Of a DNA stretch of 48,926 nt, positions 39,039 through 48,926 are shown piece by piece. The first letter of the stretch is position 1; each line of letters begins with the position of its first letter. Source of the DNA: Bacteroidia bacterium (GTDB taxonomy: Bacteria; Bacteroidota; Bacteroidia; JAIBAJ01); NCBI GenBank assembly GCA_019695265.1, contig JAIBAJ010000014.1, positions 1-48,926 of the forward strand, given 5' to 3'. A program made the position numbers and the translations under genes. Below the pieces are notes generated by a model. That model saw only the letters and a list, made by a program, of their open reading frames with translations, was not told the origin of the DNA and did no database searches.

Positions 39039-41003
39039 TTAAAAGCCAGTAGGTTTAGGATAATCCGGTGGGATAGTTAAACCATCCTGAACCATGATAA
39101 TATCTTTGAAAGTTTCAGGAATATAATCTCCTTTATCATAGACAGTTATAGTTTCCTGAATAGGTTTATATCCAATAGCCTTAATTAATATATCATATTT
39201 TCCTTGTTGCAGGGCCAAAACGTAGTTACTTTTACGTTTGTTAGGACGAATGGTGGCATAGATTTCAGATTCACCGGCTCTTCTAACTTCAAAGGTAAAA
39301 ATCACCTCTTTACGCTCTTTAAAAGAGAAATAGTCTACCTCCACTTTAGCTGCATCTTTTGGATCCAATTTAACCTTTGTAATTTTGGTATCCATCCATT
39401 TAAAATCCTTTAAATCTTTTGGCAATTTCTCAGCAGGATAGGTTTGCATAGTACCTTTCATGGTACCAACAATTTTAACATCGTACTTATAACCGGCTTC
39501 TAAGGGCAGATATTTCTCTTCTTTAAACTTCCAACCTGATTCTTTAGGAGGCAAGTAAGCATCGGTAAATTGCTTATCGCTACCATTTTTAGTATAAACC
39601 TGCACTTTAAATCCCTTTGAAATAGCTTTTTCAGCGAAGGCGATTTTACCAATAACAGCAGTAAGTTCAGGGGCAACATCATTGTATGTAACCATATAAA
39701 CGTCCAAATCACCTTGACCTTCGGGTCTAATTTGTGACAAATACCCATGTCGGCCATTTCTAGGGGCAGAGAAGGTAAAATTATCGTCGGTAGTATTTAG
39801 GGGATAACCAAGATTGGTTGGCCTATTCCATCGTTTATTTTTATCATCCCAAGTAGCTTTAAACACATCAAAGCCCCCCATGGAGTTATGTCCTTTTGAA
39901 CAAAAATACAGGGTTTTACCATCGGCAGACAGGTTAGGGAAATCCTCATCATAAGGGGTATTAATTTGAGGCCCAAGATTTATTGGCTCACCCCAATCAC
40001 CATTTGGCAGGCGATATGAAATAAAAATATCAGTTCCACCAAATCCTGCTTTATCATCCAAAGGAGTTCTGGAGAAATATAAAATATCTCCTTCTGAATC
40101 AGTAGTAGCAGACGTTTCGGTTTCTAAGGTATTAATGGTTGGTCCCAGAGTTTTTGATTTTTGAAAAGATTTACCTTTCTTTTCGGAAACCCAAATATCA
40201 TCGTAACCCTCCATGTTATCAATTCCAACAAACAGGTATTTTCCATCTGCCGAAAGTCCAACCAATTCTTCAACGAATTCTGTATTAACAAGCGGACCTA
40301 GGTTTTTGGCTTTGGCATATTCGCCTTTTTTCACCTCGGAATAGAAAACATCGGCACATTTATAGCCATCAAAATCGATATTTGCACCAACCACGTCATT
40401 TCTTTTAGTGGAAAATGCCACATAGTCCTCTTCATCCGGTGCAAAAGGATTGTAATCGGCGAAAGGAGTATTTACTTTAGGACCTAAGTTAGTAAAAGAA
40501 ACATTAACAGGTGTTTTCATCAACTTTTGTGCATTCTCGCACATTTCAATTTGACGAACTACATCCAGCATTTTAGCAGGTTCTGCTTTGGGGTCTATTT
40601 TTGTTTTAAGAAGTTCGAAAGTTTTAATTGCTTCGGCAAGCTTATTATTAACCAAATAGGCTCTACCGAGGTCGTATATTTGATCTTTAGTAGCAGAGGG
40701 CTTGAGAGCGACAAACTCCAGATAAGGAATTGCCTTAGATTTATCAAAATTGGTATAAAGGTAACATACCCCGGCTTTATAGTTGTATTCTAAGTTACTT
40801 GGGTCTTTTTTAACCAAGGCTTCATATTCTTGTAAGGCTGCCACATAATTACCGAGAGAAAAATTATCCTTCGCTGCCTTATTATCACCATTACCTTGTT
40901 TGGGAGGTGGCGCACCCGGACGAGGTGCCAATTGAGACCAAGCCAAATCAATAGAAAGGAAAAAGGAAATGAAAAGAAAAAAAATAGGGATTCTTAATGC
41001 CAT
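39039..41003 (-). CDS. TPR/PD40 exported protein (PorE-like without OmpA tail)
   Basis: A 654-residue exported protein, signal peptide at 1-24 (LSIDLAWSQ). A TPR region (about 45-135) reads NFSLGNYVAALQEYEALVKK and DLGRAYLVNNKLAEAIKTFE. A PD40 beta-propeller (about 165-430) has repeated phrases such as DYVAFSTKRNDVVG, LSADGKYLFVGIDN and LSADGKTLYFCSKGHNSMGGFDVF. A C-terminal region (about 440-640) contains regulatory beta-sandwich-like domains ending GKYDILIKAIGYKP. The TPR and propeller match the gene at 45129-47372 closely, but the OmpA domain is missing. It is the last gene of the four-gene operon, 33 bases after the coiled-coil gene. A structural envelope role is inferred. Confidence 0.85.
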   Translation of the reverse strand: MALRIPIFFLFISFFLSIDLAWSQLAPRPGAPPPKQGNGDNKAAKDNFSLGNYVAALQEYEALVKKDPSNLEYNYKAGVCYLYTNFDKSKAIPYLEFVALKPSATKDQIYDLGRAYLVNNKLAEAIKTFELLKTKIDPKAEPAKMLDVVRQIEMCENAQKLMKTPVNVSFTNLGPKVNTPFADYNPFAPDEEDYVAFSTKRNDVVGANIDFDGYKCADVFYSEVKKGEYAKAKNLGPLVNTEFVEELVGLSADGKYLFVGIDNMEGYDDIWVSEKKGKSFQKSKTLGPTINTLETETSATTDSEGDILYFSRTPLDDKAGFGGTDIFISYRLPNGDWGEPINLGPQINTPYDEDFPNLSADGKTLYFCSKGHNSMGGFDVFKATWDDKNKRWNRPTNLGYPLNTTDDNFTFSAPRNGRHGYLSQIRPEGQGDLDVYMVTYNDVAPELTAVIGKIAFAEKAISKGFKVQVYTKNGSDKQFTDAYLPPKESGWKFKEEKYLPLEAGYKYDVKIVGTMKGTMQTYPAEKLPKDLKDFKWMDTKITKVKLDPKDAAKVEVDYFSFKERKEVIFTFEVRRAGESEIYATIRPNKRKSNYVLALQQGKYDILIKAIGYKPIQETITVYDKGDYIPETFKDIIMVQDGLTIPPDYPKPTGF

Positions 41004-41036: not shown

Positions 41037-44000
41037 TTAATTTCCTTTATACTTCTTAACTTCCAAATCAAAGAGTGTAGCAGTAATGGTAATATCACCA
41101 TTTTTAAAGTAGAACACCCCACCCCAATTCCATGTTTTCTTTTCGTACACATTTAATTGGCCTTGGTTATTAACTATCAGGCGATACAATTTAAACTCCT
41201 TTTCCTGGATATTTTCTTCTGTAACACCATTTGGGTAAATGGAGGCCAATTGAGAAAGGAATTGTTCTCTTCTTTCTTTTTCAGACAATTTAGAACGTTC
41301 CATGTTGATTTTGGCCTCTTCAAATTTCCTCTTACGTTCTTCTTCACTTAATTTATCAGCTTGTTGAGATTTTGCTAAATAAGCAGCGGTAGAGGCTTTT
41401 CTTATAGAATCTTGTTTAGCTTGTTCTTTTGCGAATGCCAAACGGGCTTCTGCTTCCTTTTTTCTTTTTTCCTCATCTGCTTTGGCTTTCTGTTCTGCTT
41501 CAAGTTTCAGTTTAGCCTCCAATTCTGCTTTTGCTATAGCTTCAGATTCAAGTTTTTGTTTTCTTTCCAGCTCCATTTTCGCTAAAAGATCTGCTTTGGC
41601 TTTGGCTACTGCTGCCTCTTTAGCCAATCGTTCCTCTTCTGCAAGTCGCTTAGCTTCTTCATCAGCCTTTTGTTTAGCCAAAAGTGCTGCTTGTTCGGCT
41701 TCCTGTTTGGCTTTTCTTTCTGCAACCAAACGCTCACGTTCCATTTGTTCCTCTCTTTGCTTTTGTTCAACTGCTATTTGAATTGCTCTTTCTCTAGCAA
41801 TTCGTTCTTGTTCATCCTTCAACCTTTTCTCTTCTGCCAATCTTTGTTTTTCTGCTGCAAGCTTTTGAGCTGCTTCTTCTTTTTGTTTAGAGGCTAACAA
41901 TTTTTCTTCTCTTTCTTTTGCATCACGGGCCGCTTTAGCTTCTGCTGCTAACCGAATAGAAGCTTCTCTTTCCAATCGTTCTTGAGTTTCTTTTGCCTGA
42001 CGCTCTGCTTCAATTTTGGCCTTTTGTTCAGCAGCAATTTGAGCGGATGCTTGTTTATTTAGCCTCTCCACTTCTTCACTAATTCTTCTTTCTGCTTCAA
42101 TTTTTTGCTTTTGTTCAGCTAAAGCAATAGCTGCTGCATCTCTTTCTCTTGCCTGTTGAGCTTTCTTTTCCCGCAATGCTGCATCCTTTTCCTTTTCAGC
42201 TTCCAGAGCTAAACGCTGAGCCTCAGCTCTTTCACGACGTTCTTGTTCGGCTTTTGCTTCCCTTTGAACTTCCAATCTGGCTTTTTCTGCCGATGCAACT
42301 TGTGCTGCACGTTCTTTTTCTATTCTAGCTTTTTCAATTGCCTCTCTGTTTACTTCATCCTTCTTCACCTTTTCGATATACTCAGCTAAGTTAGCTTCTT
42401 CCTTTGCCCTTAAATCAGATTCCATCTTGGCCAATTCATTGGATTTACGAATCTCTTCCGCTCTAGCACGTTCCTTAGCTTTTACTTCTTCTTCAGCTTT
42501 TAGTTTGGCTTCTTGTTGGGCCAAAGTGGCGGCGGCAATACGTTGTTGTTCTTCTTTGGCTTTTCTATTTGCTTCTTCAACAGCAATTCTTTTTGCCTCT
42601 GCACTAGCTAATTCAGAGGTAGACGACTTTGCCTGTTGCAATTTAGCCTCTCTTTCTTGTTCTAACCTTTTAATCTTTTCCTCCTCTTCTCTTATTTTCT
42701 TCAATTCTGCTTGCTGTGCATCAATTTCTTGAATCTTCTTTTTATTTCTTTCTTCATTCAACTCAGCCAATTCTGTTTCCAACTTTCCAACTTGTTGAGT
42801 TTGTGCTTGCTTAATTTGTGCAGCAATTCTAGCCTCTTCCGCCTTTCTTTCCACTTCAGATGCTTTTAATTGAGCCTGACTAATTCTGCGAATTTCATCC
42901 TCTCTGGCTTTGGAATCTTCTTCCAGTTTCTTTAAACTTTTCTTTTGTTCTTCTGCCATTATCAGTTGTTGATCAACTTCTTGTGACGAAATCTGGCTTC
43001 GAGTTTTAAATTCTTCTTTTTTCCTTGTATCCTCGGCGATTTCCTTCTCCAGCATTACATTTTTATACTTGTTCTCCAATTGTGTTGCAACAGCAGCATC
43101 GGCAGCTGCAAACAAAGAGGTTACATCAATGGTTGAATTTACCTGTCCTGACTTTTCGAGCTTAGCTTTTTGCTGAAGGTAATTTTCGTACATAGCTGCG
43201 GCACGCTCTTCTTTGAAATCCGCATTTGGTGGCAAAGTATTGGCAATTTCCCTGATAATTAATGTTTTATTTTCTGCTCCTTTTTTAACTGCAACTTCGA
43301 ATCGAATTCGCTTTTCCAATTCGACCTTCCTTTGCTCTTCGGCTTTCACTTCTTCAATTTTCTTTTGAGCTTCCTTCATAGCCTGTTGCTTGGCAATACG
43401 CTCTTGTTCTTCTTTTGAAACTACAGGCTTTTGCCCAGGCAATTCAGGAATTTTCGGGGTTACATAGTCTCCATTTTCCAAATCTTCCTGAGCTTTGTTG
43501 GCAGCACCAAAAAGGGATTGAAAGTCGATACCGGTTCCTGCTGTTCCACCTGAACTTTGCGCCCTTTTTAAATCATTAACATATTGAACATACATTGATT
43601 TAGCCTTTTCCTTTTTAAAAGGATCATTCTTTTCAAAAGTGGATTCAAACCCTGCAAGAATGGCATTCGGGTCTCCATTGGCTTCTTTAATTGCCTTAGT
43701 AATTTTATCAATTGCTATTTGTTGGGTTTTATTAGACTTTTCAGCCTCTTTTCTTTGGTATTCCTTAACACCTTGAGTATTCTTAAAAGTTGTTCTTGCG
43801 TCATCTTCTGCAATGGCTTTTGTTTCAGCCATTTCGGCAGCGGAAAAAAGAGCACCAAAATCTAAATCTGATTTTGCAACACCTCCTTTAGCCAAGGTTT
43901 TCTTTGCATATTCTTCAAAGATAGCTTCAGCCTTTACTTGTGCATATGGATCATTTTTGGGGAAAGTTTGCTTTAAAGCTTCAATGGTTAAATCTTTATC

Positions 44001-45068
44001 ACCTCCACCCTTAACAATGGATTCGGCAACTTTTTTATTGAAATCCTCTTTGGCTTTAGCTTTCTTCTCTTCTTCCAATTTGGCTGCCATTTCCAATTTG
44101 GTGGTCATTTCGCTTTTAACAGCCAATTGTTGCTGTTTAAAAACCTCTTCTTGAGTTTTGGCTGCAGCTTCCTTTTTGGCTAGAATTTCTTTTTCCTTTT
44201 CAATGATTTCTTTATCTTGAGCTTGCTTTAATTGCTCACCCACAATTTTTGCTGCTTGAACAACAGATTTATAATCAATAACCTCATTAGGATTTGAAGC
44301 AACTTTGCTTTTTTCAGAAAGGTACTTTTCATACATAGCTTCCGCCTTTTCATCCTGGAAAGTCTGACCTTGAAGCATAGTTTGTTTAAATTGATTCAAA
44401 ATGGCAGGTTTATCATTTCCGGCAATTTGAAGTGCCTTTTCAATTTTTTCTTCAGCAACTTTTGATTCTGCATCTTGATACTTTTTGGCTTTTTCATTGA
44501 GTGCAGCCTTTTCTTCGGCAGCAATCCTGGCCATTTCAAGTTTTTCCAAACGTTCTCTTTCTTTTCGTTCTTCCTCTTCTTGTTCCTCTTTAGTATAATC
44601 CAATTCATAATCAAAAGAGGACTTCTTAATATGATAAAAGACATTGGCCACCGGTCTAACAAACTTTTTTCCATCCTTATCAGGAATCATATCGACAATA
44701 AATTCGAATTTAGAAACAGAATCCAATTTGGATTCTTTTATTTCTGTATCAAACCGTACTTTCTTAGTTGTATATCCGCCTTTAGAGCATTCAATAAGAT
44801 ATACTGTATTGTAGCGCAATTTAAATTTAAACTTGGCATTATTTGGAGTTACCATTTGTTCTTGTTGAACATAGGTCCCATTTTTAGCGGTATCTACATA
44901 CAATGTAACAAGACAACCTTTCAAACCGGCCGACATCTCATTGGAACTACCATTGATTTCCAAATAGCCCTTATATTGGGCAAATGAACTGAAACTCAGT
45001 ATAAGAAACAAAAAAGTAAAAACTCTTTTGATACCGGTAGGGGAAATAAAGTAAACTTTTTCTAGCAC
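41037..45068 (-). CDS. Giant exported coiled-coil protein with four internal repeats
   Basis: A 1343-residue protein with a signal peptide (about 14-31, FLILSFSSFAQ). Residues 32-150 form a beta-rich domain resembling transthyretin-like carriers (GLKGCLVTLYVDTAKNG, YNTVYLIECSKGGYTTKK). Four related units of about 75 residues follow, at about 206-280, 346-418, 453-530 and 587-662. They share I-x2-A, D/N-K/P, an I-L-x2-F-x2-T-like helix, DP[F/Y]xxEKAxAMYExY and I-D-[F/Y]-x-S-L-F-x-A-A. Residues about 690-1265 are a long Glu/Lys/Ala/Arg coiled coil. The last 80 (FKLYRLIVNNQGQLNVYEKK) are a small beta domain. It lies between two TPR/PD40 genes. I know no named family; a periplasm-spanning rod is inferred. 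Confidence 0.8.
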   Translation of the reverse strand: MLEKVYFISPTGIKRVFTFLFLILSFSSFAQYKGYLEINGSSNEMSAGLKGCLVTLYVDTAKNGTYVQQEQMVTPNNAKFKFKLRYNTVYLIECSKGGYTTKKVRFDTEIKESKLDSVSKFEFIVDMIPDKDGKKFVRPVANVFYHIKKSSFDYELDYTKEEQEEEERKERERLEKLEMARIAAEEKAALNEKAKKYQDAESKVAEEKIEKALQIAGNDKPAILNQFKQTMLQGQTFQDEKAEAMYEKYLSEKSKVASNPNEVIDYKSVVQAAKIVGEQLKQAQDKEIIEKEKEILAKKEAAAKTQEEVFKQQQLAVKSEMTTKLEMAAKLEEEKKAKAKEDFNKKVAESIVKGGGDKDLTIEALKQTFPKNDPYAQVKAEAIFEEYAKKTLAKGGVAKSDLDFGALFSAAEMAETKAIAEDDARTTFKNTQGVKEYQRKEAEKSNKTQQIAIDKITKAIKEANGDPNAILAGFESTFEKNDPFKKEKAKSMYVQYVNDLKRAQSSGGTAGTGIDFQSLFGAANKAQEDLENGDYVTPKIPELPGQKPVVSKEEQERIAKQQAMKEAQKKIEEVKAEEQRKVELEKRIRFEVAVKKGAENKTLIIREIANTLPPNADFKEERAAAMYENYLQQKAKLEKSGQVNSTIDVTSLFAAADAAVATQLENKYKNVMLEKEIAEDTRKKEEFKTRSQISSQEVDQQLIMAEEQKKSLKKLEEDSKAREDEIRRISQAQLKASEVERKAEEARIAAQIKQAQTQQVGKLETELAELNEERNKKKIQEIDAQQAELKKIREEEEKIKRLEQEREAKLQQAKSSTSELASAEAKRIAVEEANRKAKEEQQRIAAATLAQQEAKLKAEEEVKAKERARAEEIRKSNELAKMESDLRAKEEANLAEYIEKVKKDEVNREAIEKARIEKERAAQVASAEKARLEVQREAKAEQERRERAEAQRLALEAEKEKDAALREKKAQQARERDAAAIALAEQKQKIEAERRISEEVERLNKQASAQIAAEQKAKIEAERQAKETQERLEREASIRLAAEAKAARDAKEREEKLLASKQKEEAAQKLAAEKQRLAEEKRLKDEQERIARERAIQIAVEQKQREEQMERERLVAERKAKQEAEQAALLAKQKADEEAKRLAEEERLAKEAAVAKAKADLLAKMELERKQKLESEAIAKAELEAKLKLEAEQKAKADEEKRKKEAEARLAFAKEQAKQDSIRKASTAAYLAKSQQADKLSEEERKRKFEEAKINMERSKLSEKERREQFLSQLASIYPNGVTEENIQEKEFKLYRLIVNNQGQLNVYEKKTWNWGGVFYFKNGDITITATLFDLEVKKYKGN

Positions 45069-45128: not shown

Positions 45129-47372
45129 TTATTTCTTAATACTTAAAATTTTCACTTCAAGTCGACGATTCATCCTTCTACCCTCGGGATTGTCGCTTCC
45201 ATCGGGGTTCTGGTTAGCAGCAATTGGAGTACTTTTACCATAACCTTTAGGTACCAATCGTTTTCCTTTTATCCCCTTTGAAACTAAATAATCATAAACA
45301 CCTTGAGCACGAGCTTTGGATAGTTTTAAATTATACTCTATTGAACCTCTAGAATCGGTGTGACCGCTTAATTCAATTGTAACACTTGGATTATTCAAAA
45401 GAAATTTGTAAAGTCGTTCCAAGGCATCATAATAATCTTTTCCAAGATTGGCTATATCGAAGTCGAAGAAAAAGACATCACTCAACACCATTTTATCTCC
45501 AACTTTAATGTTGGCAATATCCGCTTCAAATAAATCGGTACGATATCCTTTTTCTTTCAAATTTTTCAACCTTTCAACTTCTGCCTCTAATTTACGAATA
45601 TCCTCCATTAGGGCCAATTCGGACTGTTCTTTTGCCAGGTCTTTGAATTCCGATTTGGTGTATGCTGAAACTTGCGAAGGCGTACTGGAAATTTGAGCTT
45701 TAAATCGTTTGCGTGCAATGGCGTCAGAATCCGGTTCTAAAGTAAAATCCTTATCTTCAATTAAAGGAATATAGGAACTTTTATCAAATGCCTCAACTAC
45801 TTCTGAATATGGTTTATACAACTCTGATTCAATATAAACACAATATGTATGTCCGGCAGGTAATACACTCAAATAATGGCCGGTACCTTTATTGGCACGA
45901 TACAAACCGATTAATTCATTCGTTTCGTCATCCGTGATATACATTTGAATTGGAACAACCGGTTGACCTGCTTTTAAGGTATCCACCATATTAGTAATAT
46001 ACCCAGCCATTATGGTGTAATCAGGTTCTACATCATTAAAAGTGATACGATAAATATCCAAATCTCCAAAACCTTCGGGCCTTAAGGCCGAAACATAACC
46101 ATATCGACCACTTTTGGAGAAATAAATTGAATATTCATCCCCAACAGTATTAATTGGATAGCCCAAATTAGAAGGAGAACCCCAAGTTTCTGTAACTGGA
46201 TTCCAAACTGATTTAAATACATCCAAACCACCCATGTTGGTATGACCTTCAGAAGAAAAAAACAAGGTTTTTCCATCACCTGATATATGGGGGTGAGTTT
46301 CATTGTATTTAGTATTAACATTCGGACCTAAATCAATTGGTATACCCCACAATCCGTTAGGCAGCCTTCTGGACATAAAAATATCCGTATTGTAACCACC
46401 AATTCCACCTTTGGCAATTCTGGTAAAAAACAACCAATCACCATCTGCTGAAATAGAACCGGATGATTCAACCTCTTCTGAATTTACATTTGAGCCAGGG
46501 TTATAGGGCTCTTCAAAAGCTCTACCTTTCCTTTTGGAAATCATGATATCATCATACCCATCAAAATTATCTATAAAAAGCACCAAATTTTCTCCATCAG
46601 GAGATAAACCAACTGCCTCTTCAACCCACTCTGTGTTAATAGATGATCCGGCATTCCTACCTTCCGTAAACCTTCCTCTTTTTTCTCTTGCCCTGTAAAC
46701 ATCATTCATCTTAAATCCATCGTAATCATTCTCAAGTCCAAGATTATCAGGCCTTTTTGTATTGTAAATCAGGAAAGACTCATTTTCGGGGACCATAGGA
46801 TCAAAATCCGGATAAGGAGAGTTGATAGAACTACCCAAATTCTCAAAATTACAATCTATAGGGTTCTTTCTAAACTCTTTAGCGTTAATACACATCTCAA
46901 TCCATCTAGATGGCTTTGGACCGTTTACTTCGGTATCACCTTCTTCAGCCTTGGCTTTATCAAAAGCACGAATAGCATCATCTAATCGATCTGCATACAT
47001 ATACGCCCTCCCTAAGTGATAAAAGGCATCTTTTGGATGTTTTGTTTGCTCTGCAACAAACTCCAAATAACTTACTGCCTTAACCTTGTCAATATTTGTT
47101 TGAAGGTAGCACAATCCAATGTAGTAATTATAATCTACATTTTTAGGATCGTTGACTAGCATTAAAAGGTAATCTTCAAGTGCAGATTTAAAATTCTCAT
47201 TAAAGAAATTCTCCTTTGCAATTGATGTCTTAGGCTTGTAAGGTTTCTCCTTACTTTTCAACTTTCCTCCTGTGTTCAGACTATCTTGGGCGTTAGAAAA
47301 AGTAAATGAAAAAGCGAATACAAAGGCAAGCCCCAATATTCGATAATTCACAACCTTAACTAGTACATTCAT
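45129..47372 (-). CDS. PorE-like envelope protein: TPR, PD40 propeller, OmpA domain
   Basis: A 747-residue exported protein. The start at 47372 (MNVLVKVVNYRILGLAFVFA) gives the best signal peptide, ending FTFSNAQ; an in-frame start 33 bases earlier is possible. TPR repeats (about 50-140) are followed by a PD40 propeller (about 165-440: SFLIYNTKRPDNLG, LSPDGENLVLFIDNFDGYDD, ISGDGKTLFFSSEGHTNMGG). A regulatory-like domain, a short coiled coil (about 580-610) and a C-terminal OmpA domain (about 625-747: ELSGHTDSRGSIEYN, LSKARAQGVYDYL, NRRLEVKI) follow. OmpA domains bind peptidoglycan. The order matches PorE, which anchors the T9SS to the cell wall, but several Bacteroidota paralogues share it, so I leave the symbol blank. 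Confidence 0.87.
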   Translation of the reverse strand: MNVLVKVVNYRILGLAFVFAFSFTFSNAQDSLNTGGKLKSKEKPYKPKTSIAKENFFNENFKSALEDYLLMLVNDPKNVDYNYYIGLCYLQTNIDKVKAVSYLEFVAEQTKHPKDAFYHLGRAYMYADRLDDAIRAFDKAKAEEGDTEVNGPKPSRWIEMCINAKEFRKNPIDCNFENLGSSINSPYPDFDPMVPENESFLIYNTKRPDNLGLENDYDGFKMNDVYRAREKRGRFTEGRNAGSSINTEWVEEAVGLSPDGENLVLFIDNFDGYDDIMISKRKGRAFEEPYNPGSNVNSEEVESSGSISADGDWLFFTRIAKGGIGGYNTDIFMSRRLPNGLWGIPIDLGPNVNTKYNETHPHISGDGKTLFFSSEGHTNMGGLDVFKSVWNPVTETWGSPSNLGYPINTVGDEYSIYFSKSGRYGYVSALRPEGFGDLDIYRITFNDVEPDYTIMAGYITNMVDTLKAGQPVVPIQMYITDDETNELIGLYRANKGTGHYLSVLPAGHTYCVYIESELYKPYSEVVEAFDKSSYIPLIEDKDFTLEPDSDAIARKRFKAQISSTPSQVSAYTKSEFKDLAKEQSELALMEDIRKLEAEVERLKNLKEKGYRTDLFEADIANIKVGDKMVLSDVFFFDFDIANLGKDYYDALERLYKFLLNNPSVTIELSGHTDSRGSIEYNLKLSKARAQGVYDYLVSKGIKGKRLVPKGYGKSTPIAANQNPDGSDNPEGRRMNRRLEVKILSIKK

Positions 47373-47465
47373 AACACTTATTTCTGAAAATTTTACGAAC
47401 TGCAATGCTACATTTTTTATTCGACAAATCCGAGTTATTTTAAACCTATAAATAAGATTGTCTTT

Positions 47466-48926
47466 TTATCTAAATATTTTTATTTCTATCCGACGATTCA
47501 ATTGTCTGTTTTCAGGATTATCAGTACCATTTGGATTGGAATTGGGGGCTATGGGCTGAGTTTCTCCATATCCAACGGCCCTTAACCTTTTTCCATTTAT
47601 CCCTTTGGCAGACAAATGCTCCATTACTGCGGCGGCACGATCTTTACTTAAACTTAAGTTGTACTCATCATTACCTTTAGAATCAGTATGACCCCCAATT
47701 TCAATATTCAAATCAGGGTGCATGACAAGGTAATTATACAATTTATTTAATTCAGGGAAAGACTCCCTTTTTAAGAAAGACTTATCGTAGTCAAAATAAA
47801 TATTCTTCAAAATTACCTTTTTGTTTTCTCTCAACTGAGAAAAATCATCATCATCCACATAGGTTTGTTCCACCTTTACTTCAGGAGCATCTTCTTGCAT
47901 AATCAGACTCTTGATAGTAGCATTTCTTTGATTAGCCTCTTGAAGCCTTGCCTTTTGAAACTCCAATTCTTTTGCTAAAAACTCTACTTTATCTGCCAAT
48001 TCCTTCATCTCTTCTCTCAACAATCGATTATCGTTTTCAAGTTCTCCAATTCTTTTCTTCTGCGTTGCAATTGTCTTTTGCATCTCCCCACTTTCATACT
48101 GTACTTTTAATTCATACTGCTCTTTCTCCTTCTTTTCTTGATCTGCTTTCAATTTTGCTTTTAAGGCCAATTGATTTTGAACTTTGGCAATAGAATCAGC
48201 CACTAACTTCTCTTTTTGAGCTCTTTTCGCTTCCTCCTTCGCCAAAGCCAACTTTTGTCTTTCTTCTTCCGCTTTAGCTTGCGCAGCTTTTCTCTCTTCA
48301 GCTATTTGAGCGGATCTTGCTTCTTGCTCTTCTTTCAATTTAGCAGCTTGAGCTCTTTGTTGTTCCTCTTTTAATTTAGCCTCGTTCTCTAATTTAACTC
48401 GTTGTTCTTCCTTAATTCTTAAATCTTCCAAAGCTTTTCTTTTTGCTTCTTCAATTGCTTTTTTCTTTTGAATTTCATCTGCCTCCAATTTTGCTTGTTT
48501 AAAGGCGGCCTCTTTTTCTTTCAGAACAGCCAAAGCTGCCTGTTCTTCTGATTGGTTAGCTTTAATTTCTTGTTCTAATTTCGTTAAAGCATCAGAAATG
48601 CTTTCTCCTTCTTTTATTCCAAGTTTAGCTCTTTTTAAGGTATTTTCAGCTTCCAATTGAGCCTTTTTTGTTTCTATGGCTTTTAACTCAGCGGCTTCTT
48701 TAGCTTTTTGAGCTGCCAATAATTTTGTTTTGGCTGCTGCTGCTGCTTTAATTTCAGCTTCCTTCTTGGCTTTAAGCTCTGCAGATTCCTTAGCATTAGC
48801 TACTTGCTGATTTGCTGATTGAGCTGCCTTTTGGGCTTGGGCGGCTTCTTTTGCCTTTTTACTTGCAAGTACTTGAGCTTCATCTGCTTGCAATTTCAAA
48901 CGTTCATACTCTGAGTTTGCCAGGGC
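47466..48926 (-). CDS. Coiled-coil protein with C-terminal OmpA domain (N-terminus beyond window)
   Basis: The frame is open to the window edge, giving 486 residues; residues upstream of the first possible TTG (48899) still read as the same coiled coil (ANSEYERLK), so the true start lies outside. About 330 residues of Ala/Lys/Glu/Gln-rich coiled coil, with a leucine-zipper-like end (IGELENDNRLLREEMKELAD), lead into an OmpA domain: VILKNIYFDYDKSFL, EIGGHTDSKGNDEYNLSLSK, GYGETQPIAPNSNPNG and NRRIEIKI. The expected peptidoglycan-binding Asp and Arg are present. It is the first visible gene of the four-gene operon, about 90 bases before the PorE-like gene. A rod anchored to the cell wall is the likely form. 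Confidence 0.85.
   Translation of the reverse strand, partial: ALANSEYERLKLQADEAQVLASKKAKEAAQAQKAAQSANQQVANAKESAELKAKKEAEIKAAAAAKTKLLAAQKAKEAAELKAIETKKAQLEAENTLKRAKLGIKEGESISDALTKLEQEIKANQSEEQAALAVLKEKEAAFKQAKLEADEIQKKKAIEEAKRKALEDLRIKEEQRVKLENEAKLKEEQQRAQAAKLKEEQEARSAQIAEERKAAQAKAEEERQKLALAKEEAKRAQKEKLVADSIAKVQNQLALKAKLKADQEKKEKEQYELKVQYESGEMQKTIATQKKRIGELENDNRLLREEMKELADKVEFLAKELEFQKARLQEANQRNATIKSLIMQEDAPEVKVEQTYVDDDDFSQLRENKKVILKNIYFDYDKSFLKRESFPELNKLYNYLVMHPDLNIEIGGHTDSKGNDEYNLSLSKDRAAAVMEHLSAKGINGKRLRAVGYGETQPIAPNSNPNGTDNPENRQLNRRIEIKIFR

Follow-up and report, generated by a model that had tools for sequence, protein, structure and literature searches.

A narrowly spread helical repeat in an exported protein of a broad, unnamed Bacteroidia envelope family

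The Bacteroidia encode many PorE-like wall-anchored proteins, the partners of which are mostly unknown. PorE itself is reported to combine TPR, propeller, CRD and OmpA_C domains, to bind peptidoglycan and to link it to the outer-membrane barrel PorP (PMC7192894, PMC9143113). A complex of PorE, PorP and a type B cargo has been described (PMC9143113), and deletion of the PorE-related CHU_0125 impaired outer-membrane integrity (PMC5891637). Long charged helices form a second point of reference. An excess of opposite charges at positions i and i+4 is given as a mark of single alpha-helices (PMC5347031), and such helices are described as bridging domains and acting as constant-force springs (PMC4183817).

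Here we consider a 1343-residue protein encoded among PorE-like genes in a member of this class. The window analysed is the whole of one contig (C14; 48,926 nucleotides), and its features are listed in Table 1.

Anatomy of the 1343-residue protein

The open reading frame begins with GTG, although its exact start is uncertain. That the product is exported, as the sequence-only reading had it, is supported by a signal peptide which reads FTFLFLILSFSSFA up to the predicted boundary, with Q following, and which has no lipobox Cys; the protein is presumed to be periplasmic. An NCBIfam scan at E values up to 1 found no type IX C-terminal sorting domain (e.g. TIGR04183) and returned TolA as its sole match. 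Without a sorting domain, the protein was rejected as a type IX cargo. The open literature searched yielded no description of this architecture, which does not prove that none exists.

Table 1. Features of the repeat protein and its partner genes in the window
Feature	Coordinates	Strand	Basis
Whole ORF, 1343-aa exported repeat protein	41037..45068	minus	orthologs in 4 GTDB families, ~30-38% identity
Signal peptide, residues ~1-30, without lipobox	44979..45068	minus	sequence
Front beta domain, residues 34-156, predicted transthyretin/CnaB/carboxypeptidase-regulatory-like fold	44601..44969	minus	AF2 strands, VIA Z 8-11, PF13620 in 3/10 orthologs
Repeat unit 1, residues 203-282	44223..44462	minus	HMM and pairwise scores
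Repeat unit 2, residues 341-420	43809..44048	minus	HMM and pairwise scores
Repeat unit 3, residues 450-530	43479..43721	minus	HMM and pairwise scores
Repeat unit 4, residues 585-665	43074..43316	minus	HMM and pairwise scores
Charged spacer, residues 671-1262, predicted single alpha-helix, not coiled coil	41283..43058	minus	composition, periodicity test
C-terminal cap, residues 1263-1341: helix, five-strand meander, helix	41046..41282	minus	motif YPxGxTEE...WxWGGxFYFKN
TPR-PD40 protein, 654 aa, without OmpA domain, conserved partner gene	39039..41003	minus	profile matches
TPR-PD40-OmpA protein, 758 aa, PorE-like paralogue, conserved partner gene	45129..47405	minus	profile matches
Charged spacer and OmpA, C-terminal part of a TPR-PD40-spacer-OmpA protein truncated where the contig stops, conserved partner	47466..48899	minus	profile matches

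An HMM built from the four units finds exactly four copies, at residues 201-285, 340-423, 447-532 and 584-668. All six unit pairs reach Smith-Waterman scores of 76-125 against shuffle means of 26-30 (SD 5-6), which places every pair 9-17 SD above its shuffles. Windows taken from the charged tail of the same protein score no higher than 49, and chance similarity of low-complexity, charged sequence was therefore ruled out as the source of the repeats. Together, the pairwise scores and the tail windows indicate that the repeat is real and not an effect of composition, and the four copies of roughly 75 residues proposed from sequence alone are upheld. The unit also proved to be unnamed, as had been suggested: the profile searches run as a check gave no accepted family for it in Pfam, NCBIfam or the PDB. 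Searched singly against Pfam, 28 units produced scattered matches of one or two members each (best E 0.004), while the unit profile reached a best E of 0.23 in the PDB, with nothing accepted. Pfam detects no TPR in the 1343-residue protein, and the units give no accepted TPR match. Within the unit, the motifs KA.AMYE.Y and DF.SLF.AA are kept across four families and across positions.

Structure models, built from 10-11 sequences with mean pLDDT values of 76 and 86, agree with this division. The AlphaFold2 model of residues 30-690 (11 sequences, mean pLDDT 76) consists of a beta domain and then long helices broken at every unit. All four units are predicted to share the helix order A(long)-B(9-11)-C(19-22)-D, in which the end of a long helix is followed by helix B, a DP[FY] loop, helix C with KAxAMYExY, a further loop and helix D with DFxSLFxAA; helix D mostly continues into the following linker. 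The prediction thus favours a common fold among the units, where "same fold" denotes a common helix order coupled with sequence homology. When the residues 30-690 model was used in fold searches, with the units embedded in the longer model, the matches were taken up by the front domain.

The beta-rich front domain and the small beta cap at the far end, both anticipated from sequence, are present in the AlphaFold models. Transthyretin-like, CnaB and SusC N-terminal-extension domains match the front domain with VIA Z scores of 8-11 (rmsd 2.1-2.8 over 78-103 residues), and its modelled fold is of the transthyretin/CnaB/carboxypeptidase-regulatory type (Ig-like TTR). PF13620 (CarboxypepD_reg, gathering threshold 32.3 bits) matches three of ten orthologs weakly (best E 3e-4) and does not match the 1343-residue protein. 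In the model of the last 164 residues (pLDDT 86), helices lead into a meander of five strands, and one more helix closes the chain. Searches of Pfam and the PDB with the cap returned nothing acceptable; its structural matches (Z up to 5.5) were mostly plain helices and SMC-head edges, and we claim no fold for it.

Between the last unit and the small beta cap lie approximately 597 residues rich in K, E, A, R and Q. The stretch 691-1240, rich in the same residues, has one Gly and no Pro, and Pro, Gly and Trp make up 0.2% of the tail. The sequence-only reading had taken some 575 residues of this tail for a coiled coil, a claim which did not survive the periodicity test. Over residues 671-1240 the 3.5-residue periodicity has a z of 0.0, or -0.5 with Ala counted, as against heptad z values of 9.3 and 18.2 in a tropomyosin control, and a coiled-coil rod was rejected on this basis. 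Opposite charges at i/i+4, by contrast, number 134 where 64 are expected (z 11.1, compared with 1.1 in tropomyosin). Being E/K/R-rich, poor in Pro and Gly and laden with such pairs, the tail carries the signature of a predicted single alpha-helix (SAH). Residues 671-830 alone have a heptad z of 2.1 with Ala counted, and a short coil is possible there.

The distance from the last unit to the cap ranges from 419 to 774 residues in orthologs, and in families f10 and f46 part of the tail looks TPR-like, with Pfam TPR matches in some orthologs. The rod length of 85 nm given earlier is arithmetic from helix rise and not evidence; since both the length and the make-up of the tail vary among orthologs, it carries little weight. 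Before long charged helices in proteins of this kind are called coiled coils, a heptad test is needed.

Spread of the repeat and of the two-ended family

We searched 395 Bacteroidia genomes with the profile of 28 units, and 15 of them contain the unit. All fall within four families (f1, f4, f10 and f46), and the unit is confined to orthologs of the 1343-residue protein, with one exception. Among high-quality genomes, it is found in 6/6 from the order of f10 and 3/3 from that of f4; the source genome is the sole representative of its order among those compared. A single-sequence scan of the genome contigs gave no match, and an alignment-based scan gave 13 loci. The named records with orthologs are uncultured Bacteroidetes or Flavobacteriales MAGs, which, judging by their sample names, appear to come from freshwater lakes.

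All complete orthologs (ORFs of 1161-1538 codons) have four to six units at a matching place. Units are 40% identical at the same position and 29% across positions, and they group mainly by position across proteins, which indicates that the array is old and predates the split of the families; unit 1 of the source protein has no position signal. The exception noted above is an exported Amidase_3 protein of 789 residues in one genome (G045), which contains a single unit (E 1.7e-13); the amidase orthologs of nine further genomes do not contain the unit. The unit is therefore portable, having entered a wall hydrolase on one occasion.

The cap motif (YPxGxTEE ... WxWGGxFYFKN) occurs in 177 of the 395 genomes, often in several copies each. 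Twenty loci picked by the cap alone hold 22 cap ORFs, and the cap is C-terminal in every one. The front domain is also present in 19, and one of the three ORFs lacking it is cut by a contig end; the pairing of front and cap is a rule with exceptions. Middles range from approximately 155 to 1500 residues, so that the ends of the family are conserved and the middle is variable, and none of the 22 ORFs contains the 75-80-residue repeat. Given the prevalence of the cap and its usual front domain, the 1343-residue protein is a repeat-bearing member of a widespread family, for which the Pfam and NCBIfam copies searched hold no name. The earlier suggestion that no known family has this order is accordingly narrowed: the repeats are indeed special, but the front-spacer-cap order is common in Bacteroidia, albeit in a family without a name. 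The helical repeat is new and of limited distribution, whereas the envelope family to which its bearer belongs is broad and unnamed.

At least two other branches of the cap family have neighbours of their own, as read from sequence starts: a neighbouring gene with an FAD-oxidoreductase-like start in one (L036, L046, L047, L115, L120, L121) and a neighbouring gene with an HMG-CoA-lyase-like start in another (L105, L107, L112, L114, L118). A PorE-like neighbour lay within the stretch examined at one of the 20 cap-picked loci. In family f8, a cap protein with TPR and a front domain, and without the repeats, is encoded immediately after a TPR-PD40-OmpA gene; the locus also includes PorP/SprF (PF11751, E 1e-27).

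Gene cluster and proposed function

The gene for the 1343-residue protein is the third of a series on one strand, with 33-60 bp between neighbours; it follows an OmpA gene, cut at position 48926, and a TPR-PD40-OmpA gene, and precedes a TPR-PD40 gene. This order is kept in families f4, f10 and f46 despite an ortholog identity of approximately 30-38% across families. An extra TPR-PD40 gene lies upstream of the cluster in f4 and f10 when the contig extends far enough. Best matches to the corresponding cluster genes fit orthology for the 758-residue (45-53%) and 654-residue (41-50%) proteins. The N-terminal portion that the OmpA gene lacks is likely on contig C61 (~54% to f4 and f10); no exact overlap of the window end with C61 was found, and their adjacency is only likely. 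A homologue (52%) of the first gene of the five-gene order sits inside another contig, and that order is thus not shown in full for the source genome.

Measured against the PorE and CHU_0125-family profiles, the cluster neighbours score 162-257 bits, far below the cut-offs of 600 and 620; the 654-residue protein reaches 162 bits and the 758-residue protein 234 bits against PorE (NF052230). The PorE equivalog of the source genome (620 bits) is on contig C3, and the genome has at least 150 type A T9SS sorting-domain matches. No PorP-like gene was seen in the cluster or its relatives.

With moderate confidence, we infer that the protein is an exported, periplasmic, two-ended envelope strut, the repeats of which dock TPR-PD40-OmpA partners near peptidoglycan. 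The transthyretin-like front domain and the C-terminal cap, common to the unnamed family, would serve as the two attachment ends. The spacer may act as a length-tolerant helical tether, mostly a single alpha-helix and partly TPR in some lineages, along which the helical modules, four to six in number, each of 75-80 residues and linked by long helices, would dock partners. These would be the co-encoded TPR-PD40-OmpA proteins, bound to peptidoglycan through their OmpA domains, and the assembly might keep components of the outer membrane or of secretion in place, or at a distance, with respect to the cell wall, as proposed for PorE. This reading draws on the conserved ends and variable middle, the conserved cluster, the lack of a T9SS signal and the occurrence of one unit in an exported amidase of peptidoglycan, consistent with a position close to the wall.

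Several observations weigh against the strut. The TPR-PD40 genes of the cluster are mutually paralogous, so duplication could explain part of the clustering; there is no PorP-like gene beside them, and the source genome has its own PorE elsewhere; PorE-like neighbours are as scarce in the wider family as the sampled loci indicate; and a helix of approximately 570 residues, fully stretched, is longer than the periplasm and must therefore bend, run along the wall or sit elsewhere.

Paralogues in the same genomes have plain charged spacers and no repeats, and spacer length is not conserved, as might be expected if the protein were a periplasmic spacer or mechanical support of a general kind, lacking specific partners, whose ends bind outer membrane and wall and whose repeats only stiffen and lengthen it. 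We think this unlikely, as a unit motif kept so precisely across families and positions exceeds the needs of a bare spacer, and an amidase has acquired one unit. Membership of an accessory complex for type IX secretion or gliding, in which a PorE-type module anchors a surface adhesin or track via a barrel encoded elsewhere, seems to us equally improbable. The many sorting-domain matches and PorE equivalog of the source genome, the cap-family member in the f8 PorP/SprF locus and the PorE-PorP-type B cargo complex (PMC9143113) speak for it; against it, no PorP-like gene was seen in the cluster or its relatives, and the protein has no sorting domain. A long helix projecting outside the cell as a surface or extracellular stalk is very improbable. 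The length of the protein would suit it, and transthyretin/CnaB-like domains are common in surface proteins, but the protein has neither T9SS sorting signal nor lipobox, is clustered with wall-binding proteins and shares its unit with a wall amidase.

Beyond the strut itself, we tentatively suggest that the unit could be a new helical domain of the Bacteroidia periplasm, portable and docking proteins at the wall. The protein may then represent the repeat-bearing branch of a large unnamed class of two-ended tethers, found in nearly half of the sampled genomes; together with a four- or five-gene PorE-like cluster it would make up a scaffold that is fixed to the wall and separate from the T9SS core. 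Such exported tethers, whose ends are constant and whose cap is present in ~45% of sampled genomes, are candidates for what the wall anchors hold, and a repeat family with a conserved docking-like module offers a handle for finding the partner.

Comparison with described systems

The TPR-PD40(-OmpA) architecture of the PorE (NF052230) and CHU_0125 (NF053607) families is also that of the cluster neighbours. It is entirely absent from the 1343-residue protein, which has no match to T9SS_PorE (NF052230, >600 bits), although tying envelope parts to peptidoglycan is likely a common principle. TolA (TIGR02794) resembles the protein in its charged, alanine-rich helical spacer and differs from it in the end domains; membership was rejected at 22.4 bits against a cut-off of 59.45, the match being to the low-complexity spacer only. 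Transthyretin-like, CnaB and PF13620 domains appear to share the fold of the front domain, which in this protein falls below Pfam detection for PF13620 and is coupled to repeats and a cap. The unnamed family of front TTR-like domain, charged spacer and WxWGG cap has both ends and the spacer in common with the 1343-residue protein, which differs from the other sampled members in bearing the 75-80-residue repeats.

Surroundings of the gene and T9SS content of its genome

The gene that is cut by the right end of the window appears to continue on another contig of the same genome (C61), where its N-terminal part reaches the contig start and is likewise cut. C61 probably adjoins the window at this end; an exact overlap between the ends of the two contigs was not found. 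The plus-strand ORFs opposite the gene for the repeat protein are probably spurious mirror ORFs of its charged repeats. The source genome (G000) holds at least 150 matches to the type A T9SS sorting domain, one PorE equivalog (C3:24219-26159) and several further PorE-like paralogues.

Coordinates of the features discussed
Feature	Location	Strand	Remarks
ORFs opposite the gene	window 41482-41781, 42427-42732, 43813-44154, 44475-44987	+	99-170 aa
N-terminal part of gene ending the window	L130, G000:C61:1-854		C-terminal part, 47466-48899
PorP/SprF gene, TPR gene, TPR-PD40-OmpA gene, cap-family protein with TPR	L119, G007:C68:42000-53000	all same
TPR-PD40-OmpA partner with WD40 propeller	L041:10998-14207	-	GTDB family f10
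N-acetylmuramoyl-L-alanine amidase (Amidase_3)	L132:4290-6656, G045:C118	-	repeat unit and charged spacer

Partner and cap-family genes

Between its PD40 and OmpA parts, the f10 partner carries a strong, eukaryote-like WD40 propeller with matches to many WD40 families, the best of them at E 7e-67. Among cap-family proteins, the L119 member itself carries TPR. One further branch of the family has a constant FAD-oxidoreductase-like neighbour gene (L036, L046, L047, L115, L120, L121), and a second a constant HMG-CoA-lyase-like one (L105, L107, L112, L114, L118).

The repeat unit within an amidase

The repeat unit, absent from orthologs of the G045 amidase in nine other genomes, occurs once in that protein (residues 539-616, E 1.7e-13), which also contains a charged spacer.
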